Part shown: piece after piece, positions 9,483-25,127 of the stretch
How positions within the stretch are numbered: position 1 is the first letter of the stretch
Layout of the letters: each line of letters begins with the position of its first letter
DNA from: Bradyrhizobium ottawaense
GTDB lineage: Bacteria; Pseudomonadota; Alphaproteobacteria; Rhizobiales; Xanthobacteraceae
NCBI RefSeq assembly: GCF_900099825.1
Contig: NZ_LT629693.1
Coordinates: 3,793,001-3,857,000, forward strand
Reading direction: 5' to 3'
Length of the DNA stretch: 64,000 bases
The notes under the pieces: generated by a model
The model's database searches: none
The model's input: the letters and a program-made list of their open reading frames with translations, nothing else
Told to the model about the DNA's origin: nothing
Position numbers and translations under genes: made by a program

Positions 9483-10370
9483 CTAACTTCCCCGCGCCAA
9501 CCGCCGCATTACTTCGTCGAGCTGTTCGAGGTTGCGATAGTTGATCTGCACGCTGCCGCCGGGATCGCGGTGGTTAACCGTCACGGCAAGACCGAGCGCG
9601 TCGCTGACGCGCTTTTCCAATGCGATCGTATCGGGGTCCTTGACCTTGGCGCCACCGCCACTGCGCGCCTTCTGCGGCTTGCGCTCCGGCACGCCTTCCT
9701 CATGCGCCAGCGCTTCGGTCTGTCGTACGCTGAGGCCTTCGGCGACGATGCGCTTCGCGGCGGTCAGCGGGTCGGGCACGCCGATCAGCGCACGGGCATG
9801 GCCGGCCGACAATTCGCCCGTGGCGATATAGGCCTGCACCTCCGACGGCAGTTTGGTCAGCCGCATCATGTTGGCGACGTGGCTGCGGCTCTTCCCGACG
9901 ATCTTGGCGATGTCTTCCTGGCTGCGTTTGAATTCGTCCGCCAGCGCGTGATAGCCCTGCGCCTCTTCCATCGCGTTGAGGTCTTCGCGCTGCACGTTTT
10001 CGATGATCGCGATTTCGAGCGCATCGGCGTCGCTGACGTCCAAGGGGACGATCGGCACTTCGTGCAGGCCGGCGAGCTGCGACGCGCGCCAGCGGCGTTC
10101 GCCGGCGATGATCTCAAAGCGATCCTGCGCGCCCTTGACCGGGCGCACCACGATCGGCTGGATCACGCCATGCTGCTTGACGGAGGCGGCGAGCTCGCCG
10201 AGTTCGGAATCGGAAAAAGTCCGGCGCGGGTTGCGCGGATTGGGTTTCAGGAATTCGATCGGCACCTTGCGCTGGTTGCGCGGCCGGTCGACATGCGCGG
10301 CCTCGCCGCCGACATCTCCGATCAGACTTGCAAGACCGCGGCCCAGTCGCGAACGCGCTTCGTCGGCCAT
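9483..10370 (-). CDS. parB: Chromosome partitioning protein ParB
   Basis: A 295-residue CTP-dependent DNA-sliding clamp that loads at parS and, with ParA, segregates the chromosomal origin region. Visible parts: the N-terminal ParA-contact sequence (RSRLGRGLASLIGD), the nucleotide-binding core with GERRWRA (about 90-96) and ENVQREDLNAMEEA, and a helix-turn-helix (about 150-175, QEDIAKIVGKSRSHVANMMRL in two parts). A C-terminal dimerisation segment follows. The start at 10370 is preferred over an upstream ATG because GGGAG lies 7 bases upstream. Four parS sites lie 1.5-4 kb away. Confidence 0.97.
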   Translation of the reverse strand: MADEARSRLGRGLASLIGDVGGEAAHVDRPRNQRKVPIEFLKPNPRNPRRTFSDSELGELAASVKQHGVIQPIVVRPVKGAQDRFEIIAGERRWRASQLAGLHEVPIVPLDVSDADALEIAIIENVQREDLNAMEEAQGYHALADEFKRSQEDIAKIVGKSRSHVANMMRLTKLPSEVQAYIATGELSAGHARALIGVPDPLTAAKRIVAEGLSVRQTEALAHEEGVPERKPQKARSGGGAKVKDPDTIALEKRVSDALGLAVTVNHRDPGGSVQINYRNLEQLDEVMRRLARGS

Positions 10371-10417
10371 TGCCAACTCCCTTGGATTCACTTCGCATCA
10401 CTCCGGAACTAGAAATT

Positions 10418-10471
10418 CGTAGGGTGGTGAAGGTGGTGGGCACGGCGAAGACGCCTTTGCCCACCCTACGT
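10418..10471. repeat. Palindromic repeat, CGTAGGGTGG type (short)
   Basis: CGTAGGGTGG at 10418 pairs with CCACCCTACG ending at 10470; the interior is about 33 bp. It lies between parA and parB, which read the same way. Related arms occur at 34014-34105 and, as GTAGGATGGGTGG, at 37099-37178. A hairpin here could trim or attenuate the parA-parB transcript. Confidence 0.7.
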
Positions 10472-10474
10472 AGC

Positions 10475-11323
10475 TCAATGCGTCTTCAGCTCGCGCTCGC
10501 GCTGGATCACTTCGGTCGCGAGCTTCAGATACGCATCGCTGCCGACGCATTTGAGATCGTAGACCAGCACCGGCTTGCCGTAGGACGGCGCCTCGGAGAT
10601 CCGCACGTTGCGCGGGATCATGGTGTTGTAGACCTTGGAGCCCATGAACTGCCGGACGTCGGCGACGACCTGGTTCGACAGGTTGTTGCGCGAGTCGAAC
10701 ATGGTCAGCACGATGCCGTGGATCGACAGGTTGGGATTGAGCGTCGAGCGCACCTGCTCCACCGTCTGCAGCAATTGCGACAGACCTTCGAGCGCGAAGA
10801 ACTCGCATTGCAGCGGCACCAGGATCGCATCCGACGCCGCCATCGCGTTGACGGTGAGAAGATTGAGCGACGGCGGGCAATCGATCAGCACATAGGTGTA
10901 CTCGGACCCGGCCTCGGCATTTTGATTGAGCGCGGCGATCGCATCGCGCAGGCGGAACGCGCGGCCGGGCGTCGATCCCAATTCCAGTTCGAGGCCCGAC
11001 AGATCCATCGTCGAGGAGGCGATGTGCAGCCGCGGCACCGCGGTGGCGACCACCGCCTCGCGCAGCGGCGCTTCGCCGATCAGAACGTCATAGGTCGAGC
11101 AGTTGCGGCTGCGCCGATCGATCCCGAGACCGGTGGAAGCGTTGCCCTGCGGATCGAGATCGACGATCAGCACGCGTTCGCCAATCGCTGCGAGTGCGGT
11201 GCCGAGATTGATCGCGGTGGTGGTCTTGCCGACGCCGCCCTTCTGGTTGGCGAGCGACAGGATACGCGGATGGCCGGCCCGCATGGGTGCCCTATCCTCT
11301 TGATAAACTTGATCAATTACCAT
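10475..11323 (-). CDS. parA: Chromosome partitioning ATPase ParA
   Basis: A 282-residue deviant-Walker ATPase that drives movement of ParB-parS complexes. The Walker A motif is KGGVGKTT (28-35), followed by the A' motif LIVDLDPQGN (about 52-61) and a Walker B-type YVLIDCPPSLN. The start at 11323 is supported by a TGATG overlap with the rsmG stop. An internal ATG at 11284, just before RAGHPRILSLANQ, has an AGAGGA further upstream and is an alternative. It is separated from parB by a 104-bp gap containing a palindromic repeat. Confidence 0.96.
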   Translation of the reverse strand: MVIDQVYQEDRAPMRAGHPRILSLANQKGGVGKTTTAINLGTALAAIGERVLIVDLDPQGNASTGLGIDRRSRNCSTYDVLIGEAPLREAVVATAVPRLHIASSTMDLSGLELELGSTPGRAFRLRDAIAALNQNAEAGSEYTYVLIDCPPSLNLLTVNAMAASDAILVPLQCEFFALEGLSQLLQTVEQVRSTLNPNLSIHGIVLTMFDSRNNLSNQVVADVRQFMGSKVYNTMIPRNVRISEAPSYGKPVLVYDLKCVGSDAYLKLATEVIQRERELKTH

Positions 11324-12012
11324 CACACTTGATTTCCGTCTGCCGTCGCGGAGCTCGTTCGCCGATCGATTTGGTCGAGTTCGACGATCCAGCCGTTTCC
11401 GCTGGTGCGGCTGGAGTGGAGTCGTGGCGTAATATTCCAATATTTAGTGGCTTCGGTCAATTCAGCCTCTACATCTTGGCCCTTGAGAAACAGCGCTTTC
11501 GCGCCCTTTCTCACCACCGGTTCCGCGAAACCGATGAGTTGATGTAACGGAGCCAGCGCCCGTGCAGTGACGCAATCGATCGGTCCGGCGATTCTATCCA
11601 CACTATCCCCGATGTCAGCCAGATGCACGGTCCCCGCCGCCGAGGTGACGCGGATCGCCTCGCGCAGGAAGGCGGCCTTCTTGGCGTTGCGCTCGATCAA
11701 ATGAATATTTGCGCCTGGCGTCTCCGCCAACGCACACGCCAACACCACACCGGGAAAGCCGCCGCCGCTGCCGAGGTCGACCCATGTCTTCGCCGACGGC
11801 GCCAGACTCAAGAGCTGCAGCGAATCCGAGATGTGCCGGGTCCAAAGATTTGGAAGTGTCGACGGCGCGACGAGATTGGTTTTCGCCTGCCACGCCACCA
11901 GGAGATCGACATAGCGATCCAGCCGCGCCTCTGTTTCACGTGAAACCGGAGTGAGGGCCAGAGCCGCAGCCTTGTCGGATGGGTGGATGGGTGAGATGGG
12001 GGCTTTGGGCAT
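11323..12012 (-). CDS. rsmG: 16S rRNA (guanine527-N7)-methyltransferase RsmG
   Basis: A 229-residue SAM-dependent methyltransferase (GidB) modifying G527 of 16S rRNA. The SAM-binding glycine-rich motif is VDLGSGGGFPG (78-88), followed by HLIERNAKKAAFLRE. The ATG at 12012 gives the normal length; upstream in-frame codons come from a palindromic repeat and are discounted. Codons for PVSRETE (22-28) contain a complete parS core, so this stretch has a second job at the DNA level. The stop overlaps the parA start as TGATG, coupling the two genes. Confidence 0.96.
   Translation of the reverse strand: MPKAPISPIHPSDKAAALALTPVSRETEARLDRYVDLLVAWQAKTNLVAPSTLPNLWTRHISDSLQLLSLAPSAKTWVDLGSGGGFPGVVLACALAETPGANIHLIERNAKKAAFLREAIRVTSAAGTVHLADIGDSVDRIAGPIDCVTARALAPLHQLIGFAEPVVRKGAKALFLKGQDVEAELTEATKYWNITPRLHSSRTSGNGWIVELDQIDRRTSSATADGNQV
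11932..11947. other. parS site 1 (inside rsmG)
   Basis: TGTTTCACGTGAAACC, matching the bacterial parS consensus TGTTTCACGTGAAACA in 15 of 16 positions with the full 14-bp palindromic core. It lies within the rsmG coding sequence. ParB, encoded 1.6 kb away, is the expected ligand. Confidence 0.93.
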
Positions 12013-12042
12013 AGGAATCTGCTGGGGTTGACCGGTCGACGC

Positions 12043-12158
12043 TGTCATTGCGAGCGCAGCGAAGCAATCCACCTAGCCGCCCGCAAAGTATGGATTGCTT
12101 CCGCCTTCGCTCACGGAGCTACGGCGGACAAGTCGTCGCTACGCTCCTCGCAATGACG
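12043..12158. repeat. Palindromic repeat, GTCATTGCGAGCGCAGCGAAGC type
   Basis: The arms GTCATTGCGAGCGCAGCGAA (12044) and the complementary GCTCCTCGCAATGACGG (ending near 12158) enclose an inner pair GCAATCC / GGATTGC. It lies between the codirectional mnmG and rsmG genes. This is the well-known 'GCAATGAC' type of intergenic element in Bradyrhizobium and relatives, to my knowledge. Confidence 0.8.
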
Positions 12159-12188
12159 GCCGCGGGAGCGAGGCGCAACCCCCCACCC

Positions 12189-12204
12189 CGTTTCACGTGA
12201 AACA
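12189..12204. other. parS site 2 (mnmG-rsmG gap)
   Basis: CGTTTCACGTGAAACA: perfect 14-bp core, 15 of 16 consensus positions. It is intergenic, 5 bp beyond the mnmG stop codon. Confidence 0.93.
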
Positions 12205-12209
12205 CTCCC

Positions 12210-14105
12210 CTACGCGCTGACCTTCGACGTCCTCCGTCGCGCTTCGCGTCGCAGATAGGCCGCGAGAATTCCCAGCGCCGCTGGCGTCAAACCATCGAGC
12301 CGGCCCGCCTGCCCCACGGTGCGCGGTCGCGCCGCCTCGAGCTTTGCACGCGCCTCGTTGGAGAGCCCAGGTACCTCGGCGTAATCGATATCAGTCAGAA
12401 CCAGCCCTTCGTCGCGCCGGAAGGCATCGACGTCAGCGGTCTGGCGCTTCAGATAGACGTCGTATTTGGCGTCGATCTCCAGATGAAACGCGATCGATGG
12501 GTCAATGGCCGATAGCTCCGGCCAGATCCCGCGCAGCATGCTCCATTCGACGTCCGGATAGGCCAGCAGCTCGAACGCGGTGCGGCGATGACCGTCCTTG
12601 TTCAGCGCCAGGCCGTGCTTGGCCGCTTCATTGGGAGTAATTGCCAACGACTTCGCCAGCGACTTCGCGGCATTGAGCGCGGCCATCTTCGCGGCATGGC
12701 GCGCCGAACGCGCCGGGCCAACACAGCCCAAGGCAATTCCCTTGTCTGTCAGGCGCTGGTCGGCATTGTCGGCCCGCAGGGTCAGGCGATACTCGGCCCT
12801 GGAGGTGAACATCCGATACGGCTCGGTAATCCCGCGGGTCACGAGGTCGTCGATCATGACCCCAAGATAGCCGTCGGCGCGATCGAAGACGATCGGATCG
12901 GCACTGCCCGCCATCAGGGCGGCGTTCAGACCTGCGACAATCCCCTGCGCCGCCGCTTCTTCATATCCGGTGGTGCCGTTGATCTGCCCGGCCAGGAACA
13001 GGCCCGGCAGACGCTTGGTCTGCAGGGTCGGCTCAAGTTCACGGGGATCGACATGGTCATATTCGATGGCATAGCCCGGCCGGACCATCCTGACCCGCTC
13101 GAGACCGGGAATGGTCGCCAGGATCGCCAGCTGAACCTCCTCCGGCAGCGAGGTCGAGATACCGTTGGGGTAGACCGTGGAGTCGTCGAGACCTTCCGGC
13201 TCAAGAAAAATCTGGTGGCCGTCGCGGTCGCCGAAGCGGACGATCTTGTCCTCGATCGAAGGGCAATAGCGCGGACCGCTGCTCTTGATCTGGCCGGAAT
13301 ACATCGGCGAACGATGCACGTTGGCCCGGATCACCTCATGGGTCGCCGGCGTCGTCCGGGTGATGCCGCACTGGATCTGCGGCGTCGTGATCCGGTCGGT
13401 CATGACCGAAAACGGCTCCGGCGGATCGTCGCCCGGCTGCATCTCAACCGCCGACCAGTCGATGGTGCTCCCATCGAGCCGCGGCGGCGTGCCGGTCTTC
13501 AACCGGCCAAGGGTAAAGCCGGCGCGTTCGAACGAGGCCGAGAGCCCCATGGCCGGAGCTTCATCGACCCGGCCCGCCGGCCAGTTCTTTTCGCCGAGAT
13601 GAATCAGCCCGCGCAGGAACGTGCCGGTCGTAACGACCACAGCGCCGCAAGCGAGTTCGCGGCCATCGCCGAGGCGGATGCCGGTAACCCGGCCGCCGGA
13701 GACGATCAGTTCGTCCGCCTCGCCTTCGATGACGCTGAGATTGGCGGTGTCGATAATCGCGGCCTGCATGGCGGCGGCGTAAAGCTTCCGGTCCGCTTGG
13801 GCCCTTGGCCCTCGGACAGCCGGACCCTTGCGGCGGTTCAGCATCCGGAACTGGATGCCGCCGGCGTCGGCGACCCGGCCCATCAAGCCATCCAGGGCAT
13901 CGACCTCGCGCACCAGATGGCCCTTGCCGAGACCGCCGATGGCGGGGTTACAGGACATGGCGCCGATGGTCGCGAAACGGTGCGTCACCAGGGCGGTCTT
14001 CGCGCCCATCCGCGCAGCCGCGCTCGCGGCTTCGCAGCCGGCATGGCCGCCGCCGATGACGATGACGTCGAATGAATCCGCCACTGAATCCGCCTTGGAA
14101 ATCAT
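12210..14105 (-). CDS. mnmG: tRNA uridine-34 5-carboxymethylaminomethyl modification enzyme MnmG
   Basis: A 631-residue FAD protein (GidA) that works with MnmE to make the cmnm5 group on U34 of several tRNAs. The FAD-binding motif is [14 protein letters not shown] (about 14-27). Family signatures include [20 protein letters not shown] (20 residues near 85-105) and [16 protein letters not shown]. The ATG at 14105 is preferred over 14132 because it sits close to the conserved start. It is part of the leftward mnmE-mnmG-rsmG-parA-parB block, separated from mnmE by a 139-bp gap with two parS sites. Confidence 0.97.
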
Positions 14106-14168
14106 GCCGCGACTTCTATCCCGAAGTCGCAAAACCGGAAAGCTGGAAATGCCGCAAGAGCTGCCGAT

Positions 14169-14184
14169 TGTTTCACGTGAAACG
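14169..14184. other. parS site 3 (mnmE-mnmG gap)
   Basis: TGTTTCACGTGAAACG: perfect 14-bp core, 15 of 16 consensus positions. It lies 32 bp from parS site 4, about three helical turns, so ParB could load cooperatively. Confidence 0.93.
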
Positions 14185-14200
14185 GCGAGGTTCCCGAAAG

Positions 14201-14216
14201 TGTTTCACGTGAAACA
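14201..14216. other. parS site 4 (mnmE-mnmG gap), perfect consensus
   Basis: TGTTTCACGTGAAACA, identical to the 16-bp parS consensus. It lies in the mnmE-mnmG gap, 29 bp beyond the mnmE stop codon. Confidence 0.95.
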
Positions 14217-14244
14217 GCGTCGCTATGAAATGAACAAAGAAATA

Positions 14245-15576
14245 TTATTTTCCAACACAAAACTCACGGAAGATCACATCAAGGATATCCTCGACGTCGA
14301 CCCGGCCAAGCAGTCTTCCCAAGGAATGAGCTGCCGTTCGGAGCTCCTCAGCCGCGAGTTCCTCGCCCTCCCCGACAACACCGATGCTGCGTCGCAGCGA
14401 AGCCGCCGTTTCCTCCAGCAATTTTCGCTGCCGGGTTCGGCCGATCAACCCGCCTTCATTGCCGCCAAAGTAATCCTGCGCAAAGCCGACCAGCGCGGCG
14501 ATCAACTCCGGCAATCCGTCACCGCGGCTAGCCGAGATCTCGAACCCCGCTTTCCCTTGCCCCTGGGCCATTGGCCGACCCGGTGCCGCGATATCAATCT
14601 TGTTCCGCACCAGCCAAACCGGCGCCGCGCCCTGCTGCTCCATCCGGGCTTGCGGCGAATCGGCGAGCCACAGCACCAGGTCGGCATCCGCTGCGCGGGC
14701 CCGGGCGCGGCGCACGCCCTCCTGTTCTACGGGATCGTCGGTCTCGCGAATGCCGGCGGTGTCGATGACAGTCACCGGATAGCCGTCGAGATCGAGCTGC
14801 ACTTCGATGACGTCGCGCGTGGTGCCGGCGTGCGGCGATACGATCGCAACCTCGCGCCGCGCCAGCTGATTCATCAGCGTCGATTTTCCGACATTCGGCG
14901 GACCCGCGATCGCGACCACCAAGCCGTCGCGCAGCCGTTCACTTTGTCCCTGTGCCGCAAGGACTTCCTGAATCTCCGCCAGCAGCGTCTTGATTTTCGC
15001 CATCGCAGGCGCAATCAATTCCGCCGGCACGTCACCCTCGTCCGAAAAATCGATGCCCGCCTCGATCAGTGCCGACGCTTCTATGATCCGTGCGCGCCAG
15101 TCGCGCGCTCTGTCGCCGAGCAATCCCTTGAGCTGGCGCAGCGCCTGGCGGCGCTGACGATCGGTGTCGGCGTGAATGAGATCGTCGAGGCCTTCGGCTT
15201 CGGTCAGGTCGAGCTTGCCGTTCTCGAACGCCCGCCGGGTAAATTCGCCCGGGTCGGCGGTGCGAACATTTTCGAACCCAGCCAGCGCCGCAAACAAGGC
15301 GGCCAGCACCGCCCGGCCGCCGTGGACGTGGAACTCGGCAACATCCTCACCGGTCGCACTGGCCGGTCCCGGAAACCACACCACCACAGCATCGTCGATC
15401 GGCTGCTGGCCGACATCGCGAAGCAGTGCCCGGGTAGCCGCACGCGCCGGCGGGACTTTTCCGCCCAGGGCGCTCAATAGCGGCCCGGCCTGCGGACCCG
15501 AAACCCGCACCATCGCGATGGCGCTCGGCGGCCGGCCTGACGACAGCGCAAAAATGGTCTGATCCCGCGGATGCAT
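14245..15576 (-). CDS. mnmE: tRNA modification GTPase MnmE
   Basis: A 443-residue potassium-dependent GTPase that partners MnmG. It has an N-terminal tetrahydrofolate-binding domain (about 1-120, EFHVHGG), a helical domain, and an inserted G domain with P-loop GPPNVGKS (225-232), the TTRDVIE switch, DTAG and the NKID specificity motif. The C-terminal catalytic cysteine is kept in CVGK, the usual last residues. Length is slightly below 450, normal for alphaproteobacteria. The start ATG begins [14 protein letters not shown]. Confidence 0.97.
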
Positions 15577-15890
15577 CGCCTATTTGTGCAGGAGACCTTG
15601 AAAAGGCAACGCAATTTCAGCCTGGCCGCCTGCACCTGAAGCGCAGGAAGTGGCCTCACCCGAAAGCGTCACGCCGCAGGATTGATGCAGCAATGATGTT
15701 GCAAAAATTCTCAGCGATCGCCCTGCCCGCAGCGGCACTCTAAATAACCAATAAATATCAGATACTTATCTGAATATCTCGCCGCACAGGAGCTCGTCCT
15801 CGTGCTGCAGGTCTGCTGCAGCAATGCCTGCAGCATGAAAAAGGGCGCCCCGCTTGCACGAGACGCCCTGATCAAACCCGAACCGATGGC
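15577..15890. other. Gap between rho and mnmE: rho terminator, no gene
   Basis: A 314-bp interval. Its right end holds the rho terminator (15838-15869). The middle has an AT-richer stretch (about 15738-15780, AATAACCAATAAATATCAGA) and several CTGCAG/TGCTGCAG words at 15660-15835. The AT-rich part could hold a leftward promoter for mnmE, but I cannot pick out convincing boxes. I see no gene. Confidence 0.6.
15838..15869 (-). terminator. Intrinsic terminator after rho
   Basis: On the minus strand AGGGCG, a 16-nt loop, CGCCCT, then a short T run, starting about 22 bp after the rho stop codon. The 6-bp GC-rich stem plus T run fits a factor-independent terminator, which is sensible for a gene that encodes the termination factor itself. 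Confidence 0.7.
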
Positions 15891-17156
15891 TTAGGTATTC
15901 ATGGAATCGAAGAATTCCGAGTTGTTCTTGGTGTTGCGGAGCTTGTCGAGCAGGAAGTCGATCGCATCCATGGTGCCCATCGGATTGAGGATCCGGCGCA
16001 GCACATACATTTTCTTCAGGAGCTGCGGATCGGTGATCAGCTCTTCCTTGCGGGTGCCGGAGCGCGAGATATCGATCGCCGGGAAGGTCCGCTTGTCCGA
16101 GACCTTGCGGTCCAGAATCAGTTCGGAGTTACCGGTGCCCTTGAACTCCTCGAAGATGACTTCGTCCATGCGGCTGCCGGTATCGACCAGCGCGGTCGCG
16201 ATGATCGTGAGCGAACCGCCCTCCTCGATGTTGCGCGCGGCACCGAAGAATCGCTTCGGCCGCTGCAACGCGTTGGCGTCGACGCCGCCGGTCAGCACCT
16301 TGCCGGATGACGGCACCACGGTGTTGTAGGCGCGGCCCAGACGCGTAATCGAGTCGAGCAGGATGACGACGTCGCGGCCGTGTTCAACGAGACGCTTGGC
16401 CTTCTCGATCACCATCTCGGCGACCTGGACGTGACGCACCGCCGGTTCGTCGAAGGTCGATGACACCACCTCGCCCTTCACCGAGCGCTGCATGTCCGTG
16501 ACTTCTTCCGGACGTTCGTCGATCAGCAGCACGATCAGGTAGCATTCCGGATGATTGGCGGTGATCGAGTGCGCGATGTTCTGCATCAGCACCGTCTTGC
16601 CGGTGCGCGGCGGCGCCACGATCAAGGCGCGCTGGCCTTTGCCGATCGGGGCGACGATGTCGATAACCCTTGCAGAAAGGTCTTTTCGGGTCGGATCTTC
16701 GAGTTCGAGCCGGAAGCGCTGATCAGGAAACAGCGGCGTCAAATTGTCGAAATTGACTTTGTGCTTCGACTTTTCCGGATCTTCGAAATTGAGGGTGTTG
16801 ACCTTCAGCAGCGCGAAATAGCGTTCGCCTTCCTTCGGGCTGCGGATGTGGCCTTCGATGGTGTCGCCGGTGCGAAGACCGAAGCGGCGGATCTGCGAAG
16901 GCGAAACGTAGATGTCGTCCGGGCCCGGCAGATAATTCGCATCGGGCGAGCGCAAGAATCCGAAGCCGTCGGAGAGAACCTCAACGACGCCTTCGCCGAT
17001 AATGTCGGTTTCTTGAATCGCGAGTTGCTTGAGAATGGCAAACATCAGCTCCTGCTTGCGCATCGTGCTGGCGTTTTCGACCCCGTTCTCTTCCGCGAAC
17101 GAGACGAGCTCGGCCGGCGTTTTAGCTTTGAGGTCCTGGAGTTTCATTTCCCGCAT
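15891..17156 (-). CDS. rho: Transcription termination factor Rho
   Basis: A 421-residue hexameric RNA-dependent ATPase and helicase. It has the N-terminal helical domain (about 1-50), the cold-shock-like RNA-binding domain (about 52-125, [20 protein letters not shown]), and the ATPase core with P-loop PPRTGKTVL (about 182-190) and Walker [11 protein letters not shown]. Length and motifs are typical. The start at 17156 has AGGA 9 bases upstream; ATG at 17147 is also possible. A sigma-70-like promoter is seen at 17350-17378, giving a leader of nearly 190 nt, which fits known autoregulation of rho genes. Confidence 0.98.
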
Positions 17157-17349
17157 TGGGGTGGTCCTGTGGAGTGTCTTGGGGGGAAGGGGTGCGAGGT
17201 GGCTTTAAGAAAAAGCGGACAGGAGAAATGGAAGGTCCGCAGGTCTAAGCAAGGAAAGCGCCGGTGAGGCTTCAAACCTGATGCGGCGGCCGGTCCAATG
17301 AGGAAACCGGAACACGACCACATCCGCCTGCGAGGGGTGGGATTTCGGC

Positions 17350-17378
17350 AATATAGAAAATCGTCGGACGTTCCGCAA
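17350..17378 (-). promoter_or_regulatory. Candidate sigma-70 promoter for rho
   Basis: Reading leftward: -35 TTGCGG (17378-17373), 17-bp spacer, -10 TATATT (17355-17350). Spacing is ideal and the -10 is strong for a GC-rich genome. It lies between hemJ and rho and points at rho. Confidence 0.5.
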
Positions 17379-17415
17379 GCAGGTCAGCAGGCGGGATATC
17401 AGGCGAATGCATCGC

Positions 17416-17838
17416 CTAGAACGGCTTTACCACGACCAGAATAACGATCAGGATCATCAGGACTGTCGGTACCTCATTGATAATTCGATAGAATTTCTGG
17501 CTTCTGGTATTTCGGTCAGCGGCAAAGTCCTTCACGCAACGGGAAAAAAAGCCGTGGACGCCCGACAACAGCAGCACCAGCGCAAATTTGCCGTGAAACC
17601 AGCCGGACGTGTACCAGTGGCCGCTCCACGCCAGGTACAGCCCGGCCAGCCAGGTGACGATCATGGCGGGATTGATGATCGCTTTCAGCAGCCGCCGTTC
17701 CATGATCTTGAACGTCTCGGACTGTTTCGAGCCGATCTCCGCCTCGCAATGGTAGACGAACAACCGCGGCAGGTAGAGCATGCCGGCCATCCACGCGATG
17801 ACCGCAATCACATGCAGCGCCTTGATCCACTCGTACAT
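17416..17838 (-). CDS. hemJ: Protoporphyrinogen IX oxidase HemJ
   Basis: A 140-residue inner-membrane protein of the HemJ (UPF0093) family, which oxidises protoporphyrinogen IX to protoporphyrin IX in haem synthesis. Four hydrophobic segments are visible (about 5-23, 55-72, 80-97, 120-138). The early conserved histidine is H9 in KALHVIAVIAWMAGMLYLPR, followed by RLFVYH. Length is typical. It is the last leftward gene before the candidate replication origin and precedes rho by 259 bp. hemE and hemH, often in this neighbourhood in other alphaproteobacteria, are not present here. Confidence 0.95.
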   Translation of the reverse strand: MYEWIKALHVIAVIAWMAGMLYLPRLFVYHCEAEIGSKQSETFKIMERRLLKAIINPAMIVTWLAGLYLAWSGHWYTSGWFHGKFALVLLLSGVHGFFSRCVKDFAADRNTRSQKFYRIINEVPTVLMILIVILVVVKPF

Positions 17839-18281
17839 CGCGATCGCCCTTGCCCTGAAACCTTGCAGTCACGCCGACGTTGCAGAGAGCCTTCGCCAGC
17901 GTGGGAGCGAGACATATCCGCAAAGCACCGCTTCTCTAAACTAATAATTTTAGAATCTTAGGTTTGAGTCTAAGTAGCGGTGAATTGGACTCACACAAAA
18001 TCGTCCCGTATTTCTGCCGGACTTGTTCACAGTCATCACCGATTCCGCGCGTCAATGCGCTGTTGCGAATAATGCTACGTGCTTCAAGCGCTTGCGCCGA
18101 TCCGTGGTCGGGTTATGAAGAGACAAGTCCACATCTTCCCACTACCGTCGGGACCTGCGATTTGAGTTGTCCTCACGGGAGGCCCTGTGAAGAAAAGTCC
18201 GGGTTATCCCTGACGTGGCGATCCAGGGCCGATTATCTCGGTTAAGCTCCACAGGGATTCACAGATTACACAGGGGTTCTG
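17839..18281. other. Candidate chromosomal replication origin (oriC)
   Basis: A 443-bp gene-free interval between divergent hemJ and the PDRP gene. It contains an AT-rich tract (17936-17976, 10 G/C in 41 bases) and several 9-mers close to the DnaA box TTATNCACA: TTGTTCACA (18023-18031), the complement of TTCTTCACA (18186-18194), AAGTCCACA (18125-18133), and three in tandem at 18245-18272. Genes on both sides point away from it. In Caulobacter and Rickettsia oriC adjoins the homologue of the PDRP gene (RP001). No perfect DnaA box is present, so the call rests on combined evidence. Confidence 0.65.
18245..18272 (+). repeat. Three tandem DnaA-box-like 9-mers
   Basis: AGCTCCACA (18245-18253), GGATTCACA (18255-18263) and GATTACACA (18264-18272) follow each other in the same direction at 9-10 bp steps, each ending in CACA. 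GGATTCACA matches TTATNCACA in 7 of 9 positions. They stop 9 bp before the GTG start of the PDRP gene. They are proposed as weak DnaA sites. Confidence 0.5.
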
Positions 18282-19121
18282 GTGCCCACGACCGGCAACT
18301 ATTTTCATCTTCATCTGGTCTCCGATTCGACCGGTGAGACGCTGATCACGGTGGCGCGCGCGGTGGCCGCGCAGTACGCCAACGTGTCGGCGGTTGAACA
18401 TGTCTATCCGCTGGTGCGCAGTCAGAAGCAGCTCGATCGCGTGCTCGACGAGATCGAGGAGGCGCCGGGCATCGTGCTCTTCACGCTGTTGGAAAAGGAT
18501 CTGGTTAGCCGTCTCGAAGCCAAATGCCGGGATATCAATATTCCGAGCCTGTCGATCATCGGGCCTGTGATGCAGTTGTTCGAGGCCTATCTCGGTGCGG
18601 CCACCACCGGTCGCGTCGGCGCCCAGCACGTCCTGAACGCGGAATATTTCAAGCGCATCGACGCCCTGAACTACACGATGATTCATGATGACGGCCAGCA
18701 CGTCGAAGGCCTCGAAGACGCCGACGTGGTTCTGGTCGGCGTGTCCCGCACCTCGAAGACGCCGACCTCGATCTATCTCGCCAACCGCGGGATTCGCACC
18801 GCGAACGTGCCGCTGGTGCCCGGCATTCCGCTGCCGCATCAACTCGAGACATTGAAAAAGCCGCTGGTCGTCAGCCTCCATGCGACGCCGGAACGGCTGA
18901 TCCAGGTCCGGCAGAATCGGCTGTTGAGCATGGGCGCCGAGACCGGCAACGACGATTACATCGATCGTCAATCCGTCACCGATGAAGTGGCCTATGCGCG
19001 AAAACTCAGTGCCAGGTTCAGTTGGGCGCAGCTCGACGTGACGCGGCGATCGATCGAGGAAACGGCCGCCGCTGTTATGAAGCTGTTTACAGATCGCCAG
19101 CGCCAGCGGCTTCCGGAATAG
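18282..19121 (+). CDS. Pyruvate phosphate/water dikinase regulatory protein (DUF299, PDRP)
   Basis: A 279-residue bifunctional ADP/Pi-dependent kinase and phosphorylase that inactivates and reactivates pyruvate phosphate dikinase or PEP synthetase. It begins with the family's [11 protein letters not shown], and the nucleotide-binding loop is GVSRTSKT (153-160) in [19 protein letters not shown]. The start is a GTG at 18282. It is the homologue of Rickettsia RP001, which borders oriC there. It leads a rightward run with maf (10 bp downstream), coaE and dnaQ. Confidence 0.94.
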
Positions 19122-19131
19122 TGACGACGCG

Positions 19132-19740
19132 ATGACCGTCTGGCGTGGAAACCATCCCCTGATACTGGCCTCGCAAAGCCGCGCGCGGCAGATGCTGCTC
19201 GGCGATGCCGGGATCAGTTTCGAAGCGGTTCCGGCCGACATCGACGAACGTGCGGTACAAAAAAATGCCGGCCTCACGTCGCCCGGCGAGATTGCCGGCC
19301 TCCTGGCGCGCGAGAAGGCGCTGTTCGTGGCGTCAAAAAATCCCGGCCGCCATGTGATCGGCGCAGACCAGACGCTGGCGTTGGGAGAACGGCTGTTCAG
19401 CAAGCCATCGGGCAGGGCGCAGGCAGCGGAGCAATTGCGTTTGCTTGCCGGCAACAGTCATGCGCTGCATTCCGCCGTTGCGGTCGCCCGCGACGGCAAG
19501 ATAGTGTTTGCCGATGTCAGCATCGCCAAAATGACGATGCGGCATCTGAGCGACAGCGAGATATCAGCCTATCTCGATGCGGCCGGCGAAGCGGTGACGA
19601 CCAGCGTCGGCGCCTATCAACTGGAGGGTCTCGGGGTGCATCTGTTCGAGCGCATCGAGGGCGATCATTTCACCATCCTCGGCCTGCCGCTGCTGCCCTT
19701 GCTTGAGTTCCTGCGCCGCGAACGGCTGCTCGGTATCTGA
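19132..19740 (+). CDS. maf: Maf-family nucleotide pyrophosphatase
   Basis: A 202-residue Maf/HAM1-like house-cleaning enzyme that hydrolyses non-canonical nucleoside triphosphates. It starts with LILASQSRARQMLL (family motif S-x-R-R-x-x-L-L type), then VIGADQTLALG with the catalytic aspartate and a C-terminal GAYQLEGLGVHLFERIEGD. Length is normal. It sits 10 bp after the PDRP gene and 27 bp before coaE, an order shared by many alphaproteobacteria next to the origin. Confidence 0.95.
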   Translation: MTVWRGNHPLILASQSRARQMLLGDAGISFEAVPADIDERAVQKNAGLTSPGEIAGLLAREKALFVASKNPGRHVIGADQTLALGERLFSKPSGRAQAAEQLRLLAGNSHALHSAVAVARDGKIVFADVSIAKMTMRHLSDSEISAYLDAAGEAVTTSVGAYQLEGLGVHLFERIEGDHFTILGLPLLPLLEFLRRERLLGI

Positions 19741-19767
19741 AAATCTTTTGAGAAAACGGCGACCTTG

Positions 19768-20367
19768 ATGCTGATCCTTGGACTGACCGGCTCGATCGGA
19801 ATGGGAAAATCCACCACCGCAAAACTGTTTATGGAAGCGGGCGTGCCGGTCTACGACGCCGATGCGGCGGTTCACAAAATCTACGAAGGCGAGGCGGCGC
19901 CGGCGGTGGAAGCCGCGTTTCCCGGCACCACCGTCGACGGCAAGGTCGACCGCGCCAAACTCTCGGCCAAGGTCGTGCACGATCCGGCCGCCATCAAGCA
20001 GCTCGAGCAGATCGTTCACCCGATGCTCGGCGCCTCCCGCCAGAAATTCCTGGCCGAGGCCGAGCGATCCGGCGCTCCCGTCGTGGTGATGGATATCCCG
20101 CTGTTGTTCGAGACCGGCGGCGAGAAGCGCGTCGATGCCGTGGTGGTGGTCACCACAACGCCGGAAAGCCAGCGTGAGCGGATTCTCGCGCGCGGCACCA
20201 TGACTCATGAGGCGCTCGACGCCATCCTGGCGCGGCAGTTGCCCGATGCGGAAAAACGCAAGCGCGCGGATTTCGTGGTGGATACCTCGCACGGACTGGA
20301 CCCGGTGCGGACTCGGATCCGCGACATTCTGGCCGAGGTCGTTAAGATGCCGCAGCGGCGGTCCTGA
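19768..20367 (+). CDS. coaE: Dephospho-CoA kinase
   Basis: A 199-residue P-loop kinase catalysing the last step of coenzyme A synthesis. The P-loop is in [12 protein letters not shown] (5-16), followed by [11 protein letters not shown] and the lid region ([34 protein letters not shown]). ATG at 19768 directly follows an in-frame TTG at 19765; the ATG is preferred. dnaQ follows 30 bp downstream. Confidence 0.96.
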
Positions 20368-20397
20368 TTCGCCTTGAACTCAATTTCCTGAAGAGCC

Positions 20398-21093
20398 ATG
20401 CGCGAAATCGTTCTCGATACCGAAACCACAGGCCTCGATCCGCTGCGCGGTGACCGGCTGGTCGAAATCGGCTGCATTGAGATCTACAACCGGATGCCGA
20501 CGGGGCAGACCTTCCACCGCTACATCAATCCCGAGCGCAACATGCCGGCGGAAGCATTTGCCGTGCATGGCCTGTCCGCCGAGTTCCTGGCCACGAAGCC
20601 GCTGTTTACCGAAGTGGTCGAGGAGTTTCTGGAATTCATCGCGGATGCGCCGCTGGTGATCCACAACGCGTCGTTCGACATCAGCTTCATCAATGCCGAA
20701 CTCGATCGCATCAAGCGGCAGCCGATCCCGCGCGACCGGCTGGTCGACACGCTGCTGCTGGCGCGCCGCAAGCATCCGGGCGTGTCAAACCGGCTGGATG
20801 ATCTCTGTTCGCGCTACGCGATCGACAATTCCCGCCGCACCAAGCACGGCGCGCTGCTCGACGCCGAGCTGCTGGCGGAAGTCTATATCGACCTGATCGG
20901 GGCGCGGCAGTCGCAGCTTGTCCTGGCGTCCGAAACCCGGGGGAACCAGACCAACGGCATCGGCGAAACCCCGCGACGGCAGCGCGAGGTTCCCCTGGCG
21001 CCGCGGATCACCGACGCCGACCGCGAAGCGCATCGCGCTTTCGTGGCCACGCTGGGCGACAAGCCGATCTGGAACGAGTTTCTCGCAGGTTAG
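20398..21093 (+). CDS. dnaQ: DNA polymerase III epsilon subunit (proofreading exonuclease)
   Basis: A 231-residue 3'-5' exonuclease of the DEDDh type. Exo I is VLDTETTGLDP (D7, E9), followed by VHGLSAEFL, Exo II HNASFDISFIN and Exo III with KHGALLDAELLAEVY (His and Asp). The C-terminal tail for binding the alpha subunit is short and polar. It is the last gene of the rightward PDRP-maf-coaE-dnaQ run and converges on secB. A composite palindromic repeat begins at its stop codon. Confidence 0.97.
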   Translation: MREIVLDTETTGLDPLRGDRLVEIGCIEIYNRMPTGQTFHRYINPERNMPAEAFAVHGLSAEFLATKPLFTEVVEEFLEFIADAPLVIHNASFDISFINAELDRIKRQPIPRDRLVDTLLLARRKHPGVSNRLDDLCSRYAIDNSRRTKHGALLDAELLAEVYIDLIGARQSQLVLASETRGNQTNGIGETPRRQREVPLAPRITDADREAHRAFVATLGDKPIWNEFLAG

Positions 21094-24534: not shown

Positions 24535-25127
24535 AACGCCGGTCTTCGAGTTTGATTCCTGAATTGCCGCTGCCGCCGCGGCGCAAGCGTGGCCTCAGCG
24601 AGGAGGAGCACGCGCTCTGGGAGAGCGTGGCCAAGCAGGTCAAGCCGCTGCGCAAGCGGCAGCGCGCGCCGAAGCCGCCGGCCGCTTCGCCGGAAATCGA
24701 GGCCAAGGCCGCGCCGAAACCGGTGGCCTCGCCAAAGCCGCCGCTGCCGGCGCCGATCGTTTCCCCGCCAAGACCGGCACCGCCGCCGCTGGCGCCGATC
24801 GGCCGCCGCGAGCGTTCGCACCTGTCGCGTGGCCGCAAGGAGATCGATGCCAGGCTCGACCTGCATGGCATGACGCAGACGCGTGCGCACCGCGCGCTGT
24901 TCGGCTTTCTGCAGCGCGCCCATCATGACGGGCTGACCTTCGTGCTCATCATCACCGGCAAGGGCAAGATGGGATCCGAATCCGAGCGCGGCGTGTTGCG
25001 CCGCCAGGTGCCGCTCTGGCTCGGCCTGCCGGAATTCCGCGCGCTGGTGGTCGGGTTCGAGGAAGCGGGTATCGGCCATGGCGGCGAGGGCGCGCTGTAT
25101 GTCCGGGTCAGACGTTCGAGACTCTAG
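24531..25127 (+). CDS. Smr domain protein (DNA endonuclease SmrA-like)
   Basis: A 198-residue protein: a basic, proline-rich N-terminus (1-100), then a C-terminal small-MutS-related domain with LDLHGMTQ (109-116), TGKG (142-145) and the closing GHGGEGALYVRVRR. Smr domains nick DNA or RNA; the role of the free-standing form is not settled. The start overlaps the mltA stop by ATGA, so translation is coupled. It converges on the next gene with only 4 bp between stops. Confidence 0.9.
   Translation: MKRRSSSLIPELPLPPRRKRGLSEEEHALWESVAKQVKPLRKRQRAPKPPAASPEIEAKAAPKPVASPKPPLPAPIVSPPRPAPPPLAPIGRRERSHLSRGRKEIDARLDLHGMTQTRAHRALFGFLQRAHHDGLTFVLIITGKGKMGSESERGVLRRQVPLWLGLPEFRALVVGFEEAGIGHGGEGALYVRVRRSRL

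Follow-up and report, generated by a model that had tools for sequence, protein, structure and literature searches.

The 443-bp interval between hemJ and the gene of a PDRP kinase-pyrophosphorylase in Bradyrhizobium ottawaense is very probably the chromosomal origin of replication (oriC), in the alphaproteobacterial position known from Caulobacter and Rickettsia, upstream of the COG1806/PDRP gene. The call rests on its position, on strand skew, on an excess of DnaA-like boxes and on a patchy conservation, and from these observations DnaA binding, unwinding and firing are predicted at this place. The location as such is not new in print; what is new is the conflict between the published positions, and its cause. 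The window analyzed here is the whole stretch of 64,000 nucleotides, bases 3,793,001-3,857,000 of one contig of 8,339,115 bp, in which the interval (hereafter, the gap) occupies contig bases 3,810,839-3,811,281. Positions below 64,000 are those of the window, and the features considered are collected in Table 1.

An earlier note on this DNA, made from its letters alone, had already read the gap as oriC, and this reading is now supported by the minima of GC skew and KOPS, by the excess of boxes and by the orthologous gaps of related genomes. In the sequence of events that we propose, DnaA would attach to a small number of boxes of moderate strength (18023 on the plus, 18186 on the minus and 18255 on the plus strand) together with weak neighbors, and would melt the AT-rich tract at 17932-17984, where the helicase would load and from where the forks would depart both ways. 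In turn, ParB would bind the parS cluster to the left and thereby serve the segregation of the new origins.

Table 1. Genes, predicted origin elements and parS sites around the hemJ-PDRP gap (window positions).
Feature	Position	Strand	Basis and remarks
parB	9483..10391	-	TIGR00180, above cut-off
parA	10475..11440	-	ParA-type ATPase families, those listed below cut-off; adjoins parB
rsmG (gidB)	11323..12072	-	family match
parS	11932..11947		one mismatch
parS	12189..12204		one mismatch
mnmG (gidA)	12210..14132	-	family match
parS	14169..14184		one mismatch; mnmG-mnmE intergenic, fits the Ori-Finder "oriC beside gidA"
parS	14201..14216		perfect TGTTTCACGTGAAACA; mnmG-mnmE intergenic
mnmE	14245..15576	-	family match
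rho	15891..17156	-	family match
hemJ, left of predicted oriC	17416..17838	-	TIGR00701, 173 bits
oriC (predicted)	17839..18281		443-bp hemJ/PDRP intergenic; skew and KOPS minima, DnaA-like boxes above chance, 68 orthologous gaps
Candidate DNA unwinding element (AT-rich tract)	17932..17984		68% AT; well kept in alignments of 80 and 31 sequences
GANTC (CcrM) site a	17953..17957		79/79 Bradyrhizobium-like loci, 27/30 family rows
GANTC (CcrM) site b	17966..17970		79/79 and 20/30
GANTC (CcrM) site c	17988..17992		69/79 and 17/30; immediately right of the AT-rich tract
Predicted DnaA box TTGTTCACA	18023..18031	+	one mismatch to TTATNCACA; TTNTNCACA in 77/79 Bradyrhizobium-like loci, only 8/30 family rows
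DnaA-like 9-mer TTATTCGCA	18064..18072	-	one mismatch; poorly kept, twice among 80 Bradyrhizobium-like gaps
Predicted DnaA box TTCTTCACA	18186..18194	-	one mismatch; core TGTG in 79/79 and 30/30; TGTGNANAA in 78/79 and 13/30
Three CACAG-bearing weak DnaA-like sites	18246..18276	+	18255-18263 is GGATTCACA, two mismatches; near PDRP start
PDRP / COG1806 kinase-pyrophosphorylase (RP001 homologue), right of predicted oriC	18282..19121	+	PF03618, 296 bits
maf-like	19132..19740	+	family match
coaE	19765..20367	+	family match
dnaQ-like exonuclease	20398..21093	+	PF00929

The gap, its AT-rich tract and its DnaA-like boxes

The orientation of genes changes at the gap, as the earlier note had described: all those from 9483 to 17838 read leftward and all those from 18282 to 21093 rightward, with secB (minus strand) coming after the dnaQ-like gene, beyond 21093. 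The gap is also gene-free: any open reading frame of at least 100 amino acids in it overlaps hemJ or PDRP, either out of frame or in antisense. We take PF03618 (DUF299), COG1806 and RP001 to be one and the same family, in part after PMC1914354. As in origins of the Caulobacter/Rickettsia type, a COG1806 gene thus borders the gap; the hemE neighbor of that type is absent, and hemJ adjoins instead.

The GC content of the gap is 0.53, against 0.60-0.67 in most 1-kb steps of the window and 0.57-0.65 in most of the sampled genome stretches (low exceptions, 0.465 and 0.537), and an AT content above that of the genome is likewise a property of Caulobacter/Rickettsia-type origins (PMC1914354). The AT-rich tract that had been pointed out from the letters alone reaches 68% AT in 50-bp steps at 17929 and 17939. 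Such a conserved tract corresponds to the unwinding element of DnaA-dependent bacterial origins, and we infer that the segment 17932-17984 unwinds; as a hairpin, it is not notable (z -1.34).

With respect to the consensus TTATNCACA, the gap holds no perfect 9-mer, three with one mismatch and eight with up to two, which bears out the earlier count of at least six imperfect DnaA-like 9-mers. Markov-1 resamplings of the gap gave means of 0.21 for one mismatch and 2.6 for two (P = 0.002 and 0.003, respectively), and among 20,224 sampled 443-bp genome windows, including those on the gap itself, 0.015% reach three one-mismatch boxes and 0.025% reach eight two-mismatch boxes. A cluster of DnaA boxes above chance, as found in DnaA-dependent bacterial origins, is therefore present, although without a perfect box; the genome carries 30 perfect copies of TTATNCACA, none of them in the gap. 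By-eye inspection for the DnaA-trio motif, as defined in PMC6669920, yielded no convincing repeat in the gap.

The same tendency is found among relatives, where conserved boxes are seen as the earlier note had proposed to look for them. The orthologous set comprises 69 loci, one genome (G032) having been fetched twice and counted once, and in the resulting 68 gaps there are 142 one-mismatch boxes vs. 6.8 expected from flanking DNA. At least one such box occurs in 59/68 gaps; a perfect TTATNCACA, in only 12/68. Toward the PDRP start, CACAG is kept near 18258 in 56/79 Bradyrhizobium-like loci and 25/30 family rows, and CCACA near 18246 in 72/79 and 16/30. The box-binding motifs of the DnaA protein itself (RPRQVAMYL and GGRDHTTVLHA), with the residues that we take to contact the bases, look standard in an alignment to a solved DnaA.

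The idea that the DnaA sites of this gap would be unusually divergent is not supported, considering how few of the orthologous gaps have a perfect box and that the best boxes of Caulobacter are TGATCCACA. Indeed, the G-boxes of Caulobacter (TGATCCACA) are moderate and its W-boxes are very weak (PMC4468827, PMC4285127). With perfect boxes in so small a fraction, weak boxes are ordinary in the order, and the gap is a weak-box origin of the kind usual there.

Conservation is concentrated in a few elements, the best kept being the GANTC sites at 17953 and 17966, the box at 18023 (in Bradyrhizobium-like loci) and the TGTG core of the 18186 box. As a whole, the gap is not conserved as well as the intergenic region between rho and hemJ, with medians of 62% and 71% of window bases, respectively. 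Whole-gap conservation was discarded as a proof of oriC, the gap surpassing that region in 0/77 comparisons.

The rho-hemJ intergenic region (17157-17415) deserves a separate comment, being strongly conserved in Bradyrhizobium (the median of 71% given above). A search of the whole window gave no Rfam match at gathering score, neither here nor elsewhere, and the region is perhaps a regulatory rho leader.

Chromosome polarity, parS and the origin positions in print

Cumulative GC skew was computed from the window and from 100 sampled 20-kb stretches, of which 98 were spaced evenly every 83 kb and two flanked the window. Its interpolated minimum is at 3,814,000, 2.7 kb from the gap, and its maximum at 7,799,000; the KOPS-like motif GGGNAGGG has its minimum at 3,809,000 and its maximum at 7,932,000. 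A skew minimum at oriC is a feature of DnaA-dependent bacterial origins, and the minimum of the chromosome, which the earlier note had suggested to locate, is near the gap and not beside dnaA (4.03 Mb, 220 kb from the gap). The half-chromosome point counted from the gap is 7.98 Mb and both maxima (about 7.80 and 7.93 Mb) are close to it, so that origin and terminus would be about opposite.

At a finer scale, in a region of some 124 kb surrounding the gap, leftward KOPS make up 13 of the 18 found up to 15721, and all five from 17184 are rightward, which situates the strand switch 0.7-2.1 kb from the gap; the rightward KOPS at 17184 falls left of the gap and counts against it. Fine-scale GC skew is a broad plateau of several kb, with the window minimum at 24,956 (6.7 kb to the right of the gap) and a nearly equal value at 16,000. 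For one relative (G032), sampled in 20 coarse stretches, the skew minimum (6.96 Mb) does not coincide with the hemJ-PDRP gap (0.957 Mb); its KOPS around that gap are leftward (0/3, 1/2) and then 4/3, 0/0 and 2/0, with two contrary stretches further left (1/0 each).

The parS sites lie where the earlier note expected them, within about 10 kb of the origin, four of them being located 3.6-5.9 kb left of the gap; outside this cluster, the genome search found one two-mismatch site, at 4.44 Mb. Exact parS occurs in at least 50 of 61 family genomes. Distances between parS and PDRP were taken in 28 of the 29 genomes with listed places (G150 was dropped): both are on one contig in 25/28 and within 22 kb of each other in 24 of these 25, with parS on the hem side in 22/24 and on the other side in two (G191 and G196). 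In G161, PDRP starts at base 438 and parS is near the far end of the single contig, a pair that would wrap around if the contig is circular. The genome that was dropped, in about 240 contigs, carries 53 exact parS 16-mers across many of them vs. one to three in 49 other genomes, among the matches listed.

These sites bear directly on the published origins. Ori-Finder (2008, PMC2275245) proposed TGTTTCACG as the DnaA box of the Bradyrhizobiaceae, with an oriC adjoining gidA; in the ten Bradyrhizobiaceae then sequenced, its predictions were beside gidA, at the switch of GC disparity, and all contained TGTTTCACGTGAAACA. This 16-mer is listed as the parS of Hyphomonas, and that of Caulobacter is near-identical (PMC7022226, table). 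TGTTTCACG is one half of the parS palindrome, and its five copies in the window are all within the four parS sites; the gap has none of the TGTTTCACG boxes by which Ori-Finder recognizes the interval. The mnmG-mnmE intergenic region measures 112 bp and holds two parS sites, which fits the "next to gidA" of that prediction.

It could be argued from these predictions that replication starts at the gidA (mnmG)-adjacent TGTTTCACG cluster, at 14133-14244, in which case TGTTTCACG would be a DnaA box particular to the family. GC skew alone cannot separate the two places, as that region is only 3.6 kb from the gap. Nevertheless, we consider this highly improbable: the 16-mer is listed as a parS (PMC7022226) and parAB are close by, TGTTTCACG differs from TTATNCACA by three mismatches, the mnmG-mnmE region has no box at two mismatches and no GANTC, the leftward KOPS at 14366 and 15721 sit to its right, and the standard look of the DnaA motifs speaks against a family-specific box. 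It rather seems, on sequence grounds, that the family prediction mistook parS, a chromosome-sorting signal, for the origin.

Other origins were placed by the same motif, either as a 150-nt region with four TGTTTCACG motifs in Oligotropha (PMC3091675) or with TGTTTCACG in the reassembly of B. diazoefficiens (PMC4840208), and origins of family genomes located in this way are likely off by a few kb. On the other hand, a 2011 paper on USDA110 and USDA6T (PMC3927601) derived from GC skew a putative origin between bll0636 and blr0637, a pair of "conserved hypothetical" genes that are divergent to judge by their tags. These are probably hemJ and PDRP, and their interval would then be the orthologue of the gap. 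That origin shares with ours the genus and the GC skew; the passages of the paper on this origin name no DnaA boxes, no hemJ or PDRP and no GANTC, and the word "dnaA" is absent from its main text. The Ori-Finder oriC, in turn, shares with the gap a 4-kb neighborhood and the skew switch, its motif being half of parS. In the literature searched, mostly at the level of titles and opening lines of abstracts, nothing was found that identifies the TGTTTCACG motif of the Bradyrhizobiaceae with parS, and the main text of Ori-Finder 2022 (PMC10225481) mentions neither TGTTTCACG nor Bradyrhizob-.

A different objection is that the gap would be no more than the divergent promoter of hemJ and PDRP, its 9-mers being DnaA-regulated elements or chance occurrences, with replication starting elsewhere within about 10 kb. 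Such a reading agrees with the divergent flanking genes and with a skew minimum that is a plateau several kb wide, but it is highly improbable in view of the excess of boxes, which recurs across many families whether the left neighbor is hemE or hemJ, and of seven other intergenic regions examined between 10.4 and 22.3 kb, among which none has a one-mismatch box and two hold three and one two-mismatch boxes. An origin beside dnaA, as in many bacteria, is barely conceivable: the perfect TTATCCACA situated upstream of the dnaA match, at a distance of 975 bp, would be in its favor, but sampled GC skew is positive at 3,919,331, 4,002,721 and 4,086,111, without a sign change at dnaA, and no parS match is near it. 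That TTATCCACA, at 4,034,224 of the own genome, is one of few consensus boxes genome-wide, and autoregulation of dnaA is a possible role for it.

GANTC sites and known origins

The gap contains five GANTC vs. 0.86 expected from the genome, a number reached by 0.41% of 443-bp windows. The sites at 17953 and 17966 are in the top 0.7% of positions for retention; besides the three of Table 1, that at 18041 is kept in only 2/79 and that at 18256 in 53/79 Bradyrhizobium-like loci. At least four GANTC together with at least six boxes, thresholds that were set after seeing the gap, occur in 9/40,448 windows, six of them on the gap and three at one other place. Taking one gap per family (37), there are 111 GANTC vs. 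74 +/- 8 in 300 resamplings (maximum 96); among seven control spaced palindromes, two are also above the resampled mean (AGNCT, 55 vs. 37.7; ACNGT, 59 vs. 43.8). A CcrM-type RAMA domain is encoded in the own genome and in 40/40 others, and two of the 37 origin gaps (L190 and L197, from order genomes) are free of GANTC though their genomes carry that domain.

In E. coli, DnaA boxes lie next to an AT-rich tract that holds methyltransferase sites. The gap shares this layout, with GANTC/CcrM instead of GATC/Dam and without a consensus box, and we know of no SeqA in the group of Bradyrhizobium. In B. diazoefficiens grown in culture, methylation affects 99.8% of GANTC (PMC4840208), and GANTC motifs had been noted in the Caulobacter origin, where deletion of ccrM left the control of initiation normal (PMC3973325). 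This last result speaks against a role of methylation, as do the two gaps free of GANTC and the two control palindromes that are also raised, and such a role is put forward as a hypothesis only, and a doubtful one: by analogy with Dam/SeqA, the full, hemi- or unmethylated state of GANTC might alter the melting of the AT tract or the binding to it, thus acting as a timer.

The closest known counterpart is the Cori of Caulobacter crescentus (between hemE and COG1806), which has in common with the gap the COG1806 gene on the right, an AT-rich tract, weak DnaA boxes, GANTC motifs (PMC3973325) and a similar size (443 bp here; 404 bp for Cori, as tabulated in PMC1914354). The two differ in the left neighbor (hemE vs. 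hemJ), in the boxes (TGATCCACA vs. TTGTTCACA and TTCTTCACA) and in regulatory sites: Cori has five TTAA-N7-TTAA CtrA sites (PMC1914354), whereas the gap has none, either strict or in the loose form TTWW-N7-TTWW, and it has no match to the IHF consensus WATCAN5WTR (PMC1914354). Strict CtrA sites are found in 0/80 Bradyrhizobium-like gaps and in 17/69 order and family loci.

Displacement of hemE from the probable origin

The earlier note spoke of hemJ replacing hemE as the left neighbor. That hemJ adjoins the gap stands; the situation is better put as hemE missing between hemJ and the origin. In the Bradyrhizobium clade hemJ is the neighbor because the otherwise usual order, hemE-hemJ-rho, lacks its hemE there, and in the present genome hemE is at 2.07 Mb, 1.74 Mb from the gap. 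The gene left of the gap is hemJ in 79/80 Bradyrhizobium-like loci, the 80th (L162) being too short. Among the 69 order and family loci, a count that includes G032 twice, hemE is between hemJ and the gap in 50 and hemJ adjoins the gap in 19. In 61 family genomes, with G161 taken as wrapping, hemE is next to PDRP in 40 and at another place in 19, and was not found in two; the 19 displaced copies comprise 17 from the Bradyrhizobium clade and those of both g97 genomes. The length of the gap is stable in the family loci of hemJ type (429-541 bp). In an order genome of another family (L198, genome G016), hemJ is directly at a gap of 676 bp, perhaps because hemE was lost from the origin independently.

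A tree built from 30 hemE proteins, including 15 of the 19 displaced copies, unites the latter in one group (96/93); the PDRP tree needs two changes and disagrees with it. A horizontal replacement of hemE was considered in view of this disagreement, yet a vertical grouping of hemE is not rejected by the AU test (p 0.304), and the displaced hemE may either have moved or be a foreign copy. Concerning individual genomes, G103 has two hemE matches and G169 and G202 have none, and at G204:C1:2620696-2621699 the match is broken into two neighboring pieces, neither of which reaches the family cut-off, owing to a frameshift, a sequencing error or a true lesion.

An alphaproteobacterial origin can therefore lose its hemE landmark and still keep its place. 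In a large genus of nitrogen fixers, a precise oriC is now supported, and the taking of the parS half-site TGTTTCACG for a "DnaA box" explains the two origin positions in print. Since the two positions are no more than a few kb apart, replichore analyses would be little changed; DnaA-box motifs, minimal-ori plasmids and DnaA studies based on TGTTTCACG, in turn, would hit the centromere and not the origin.
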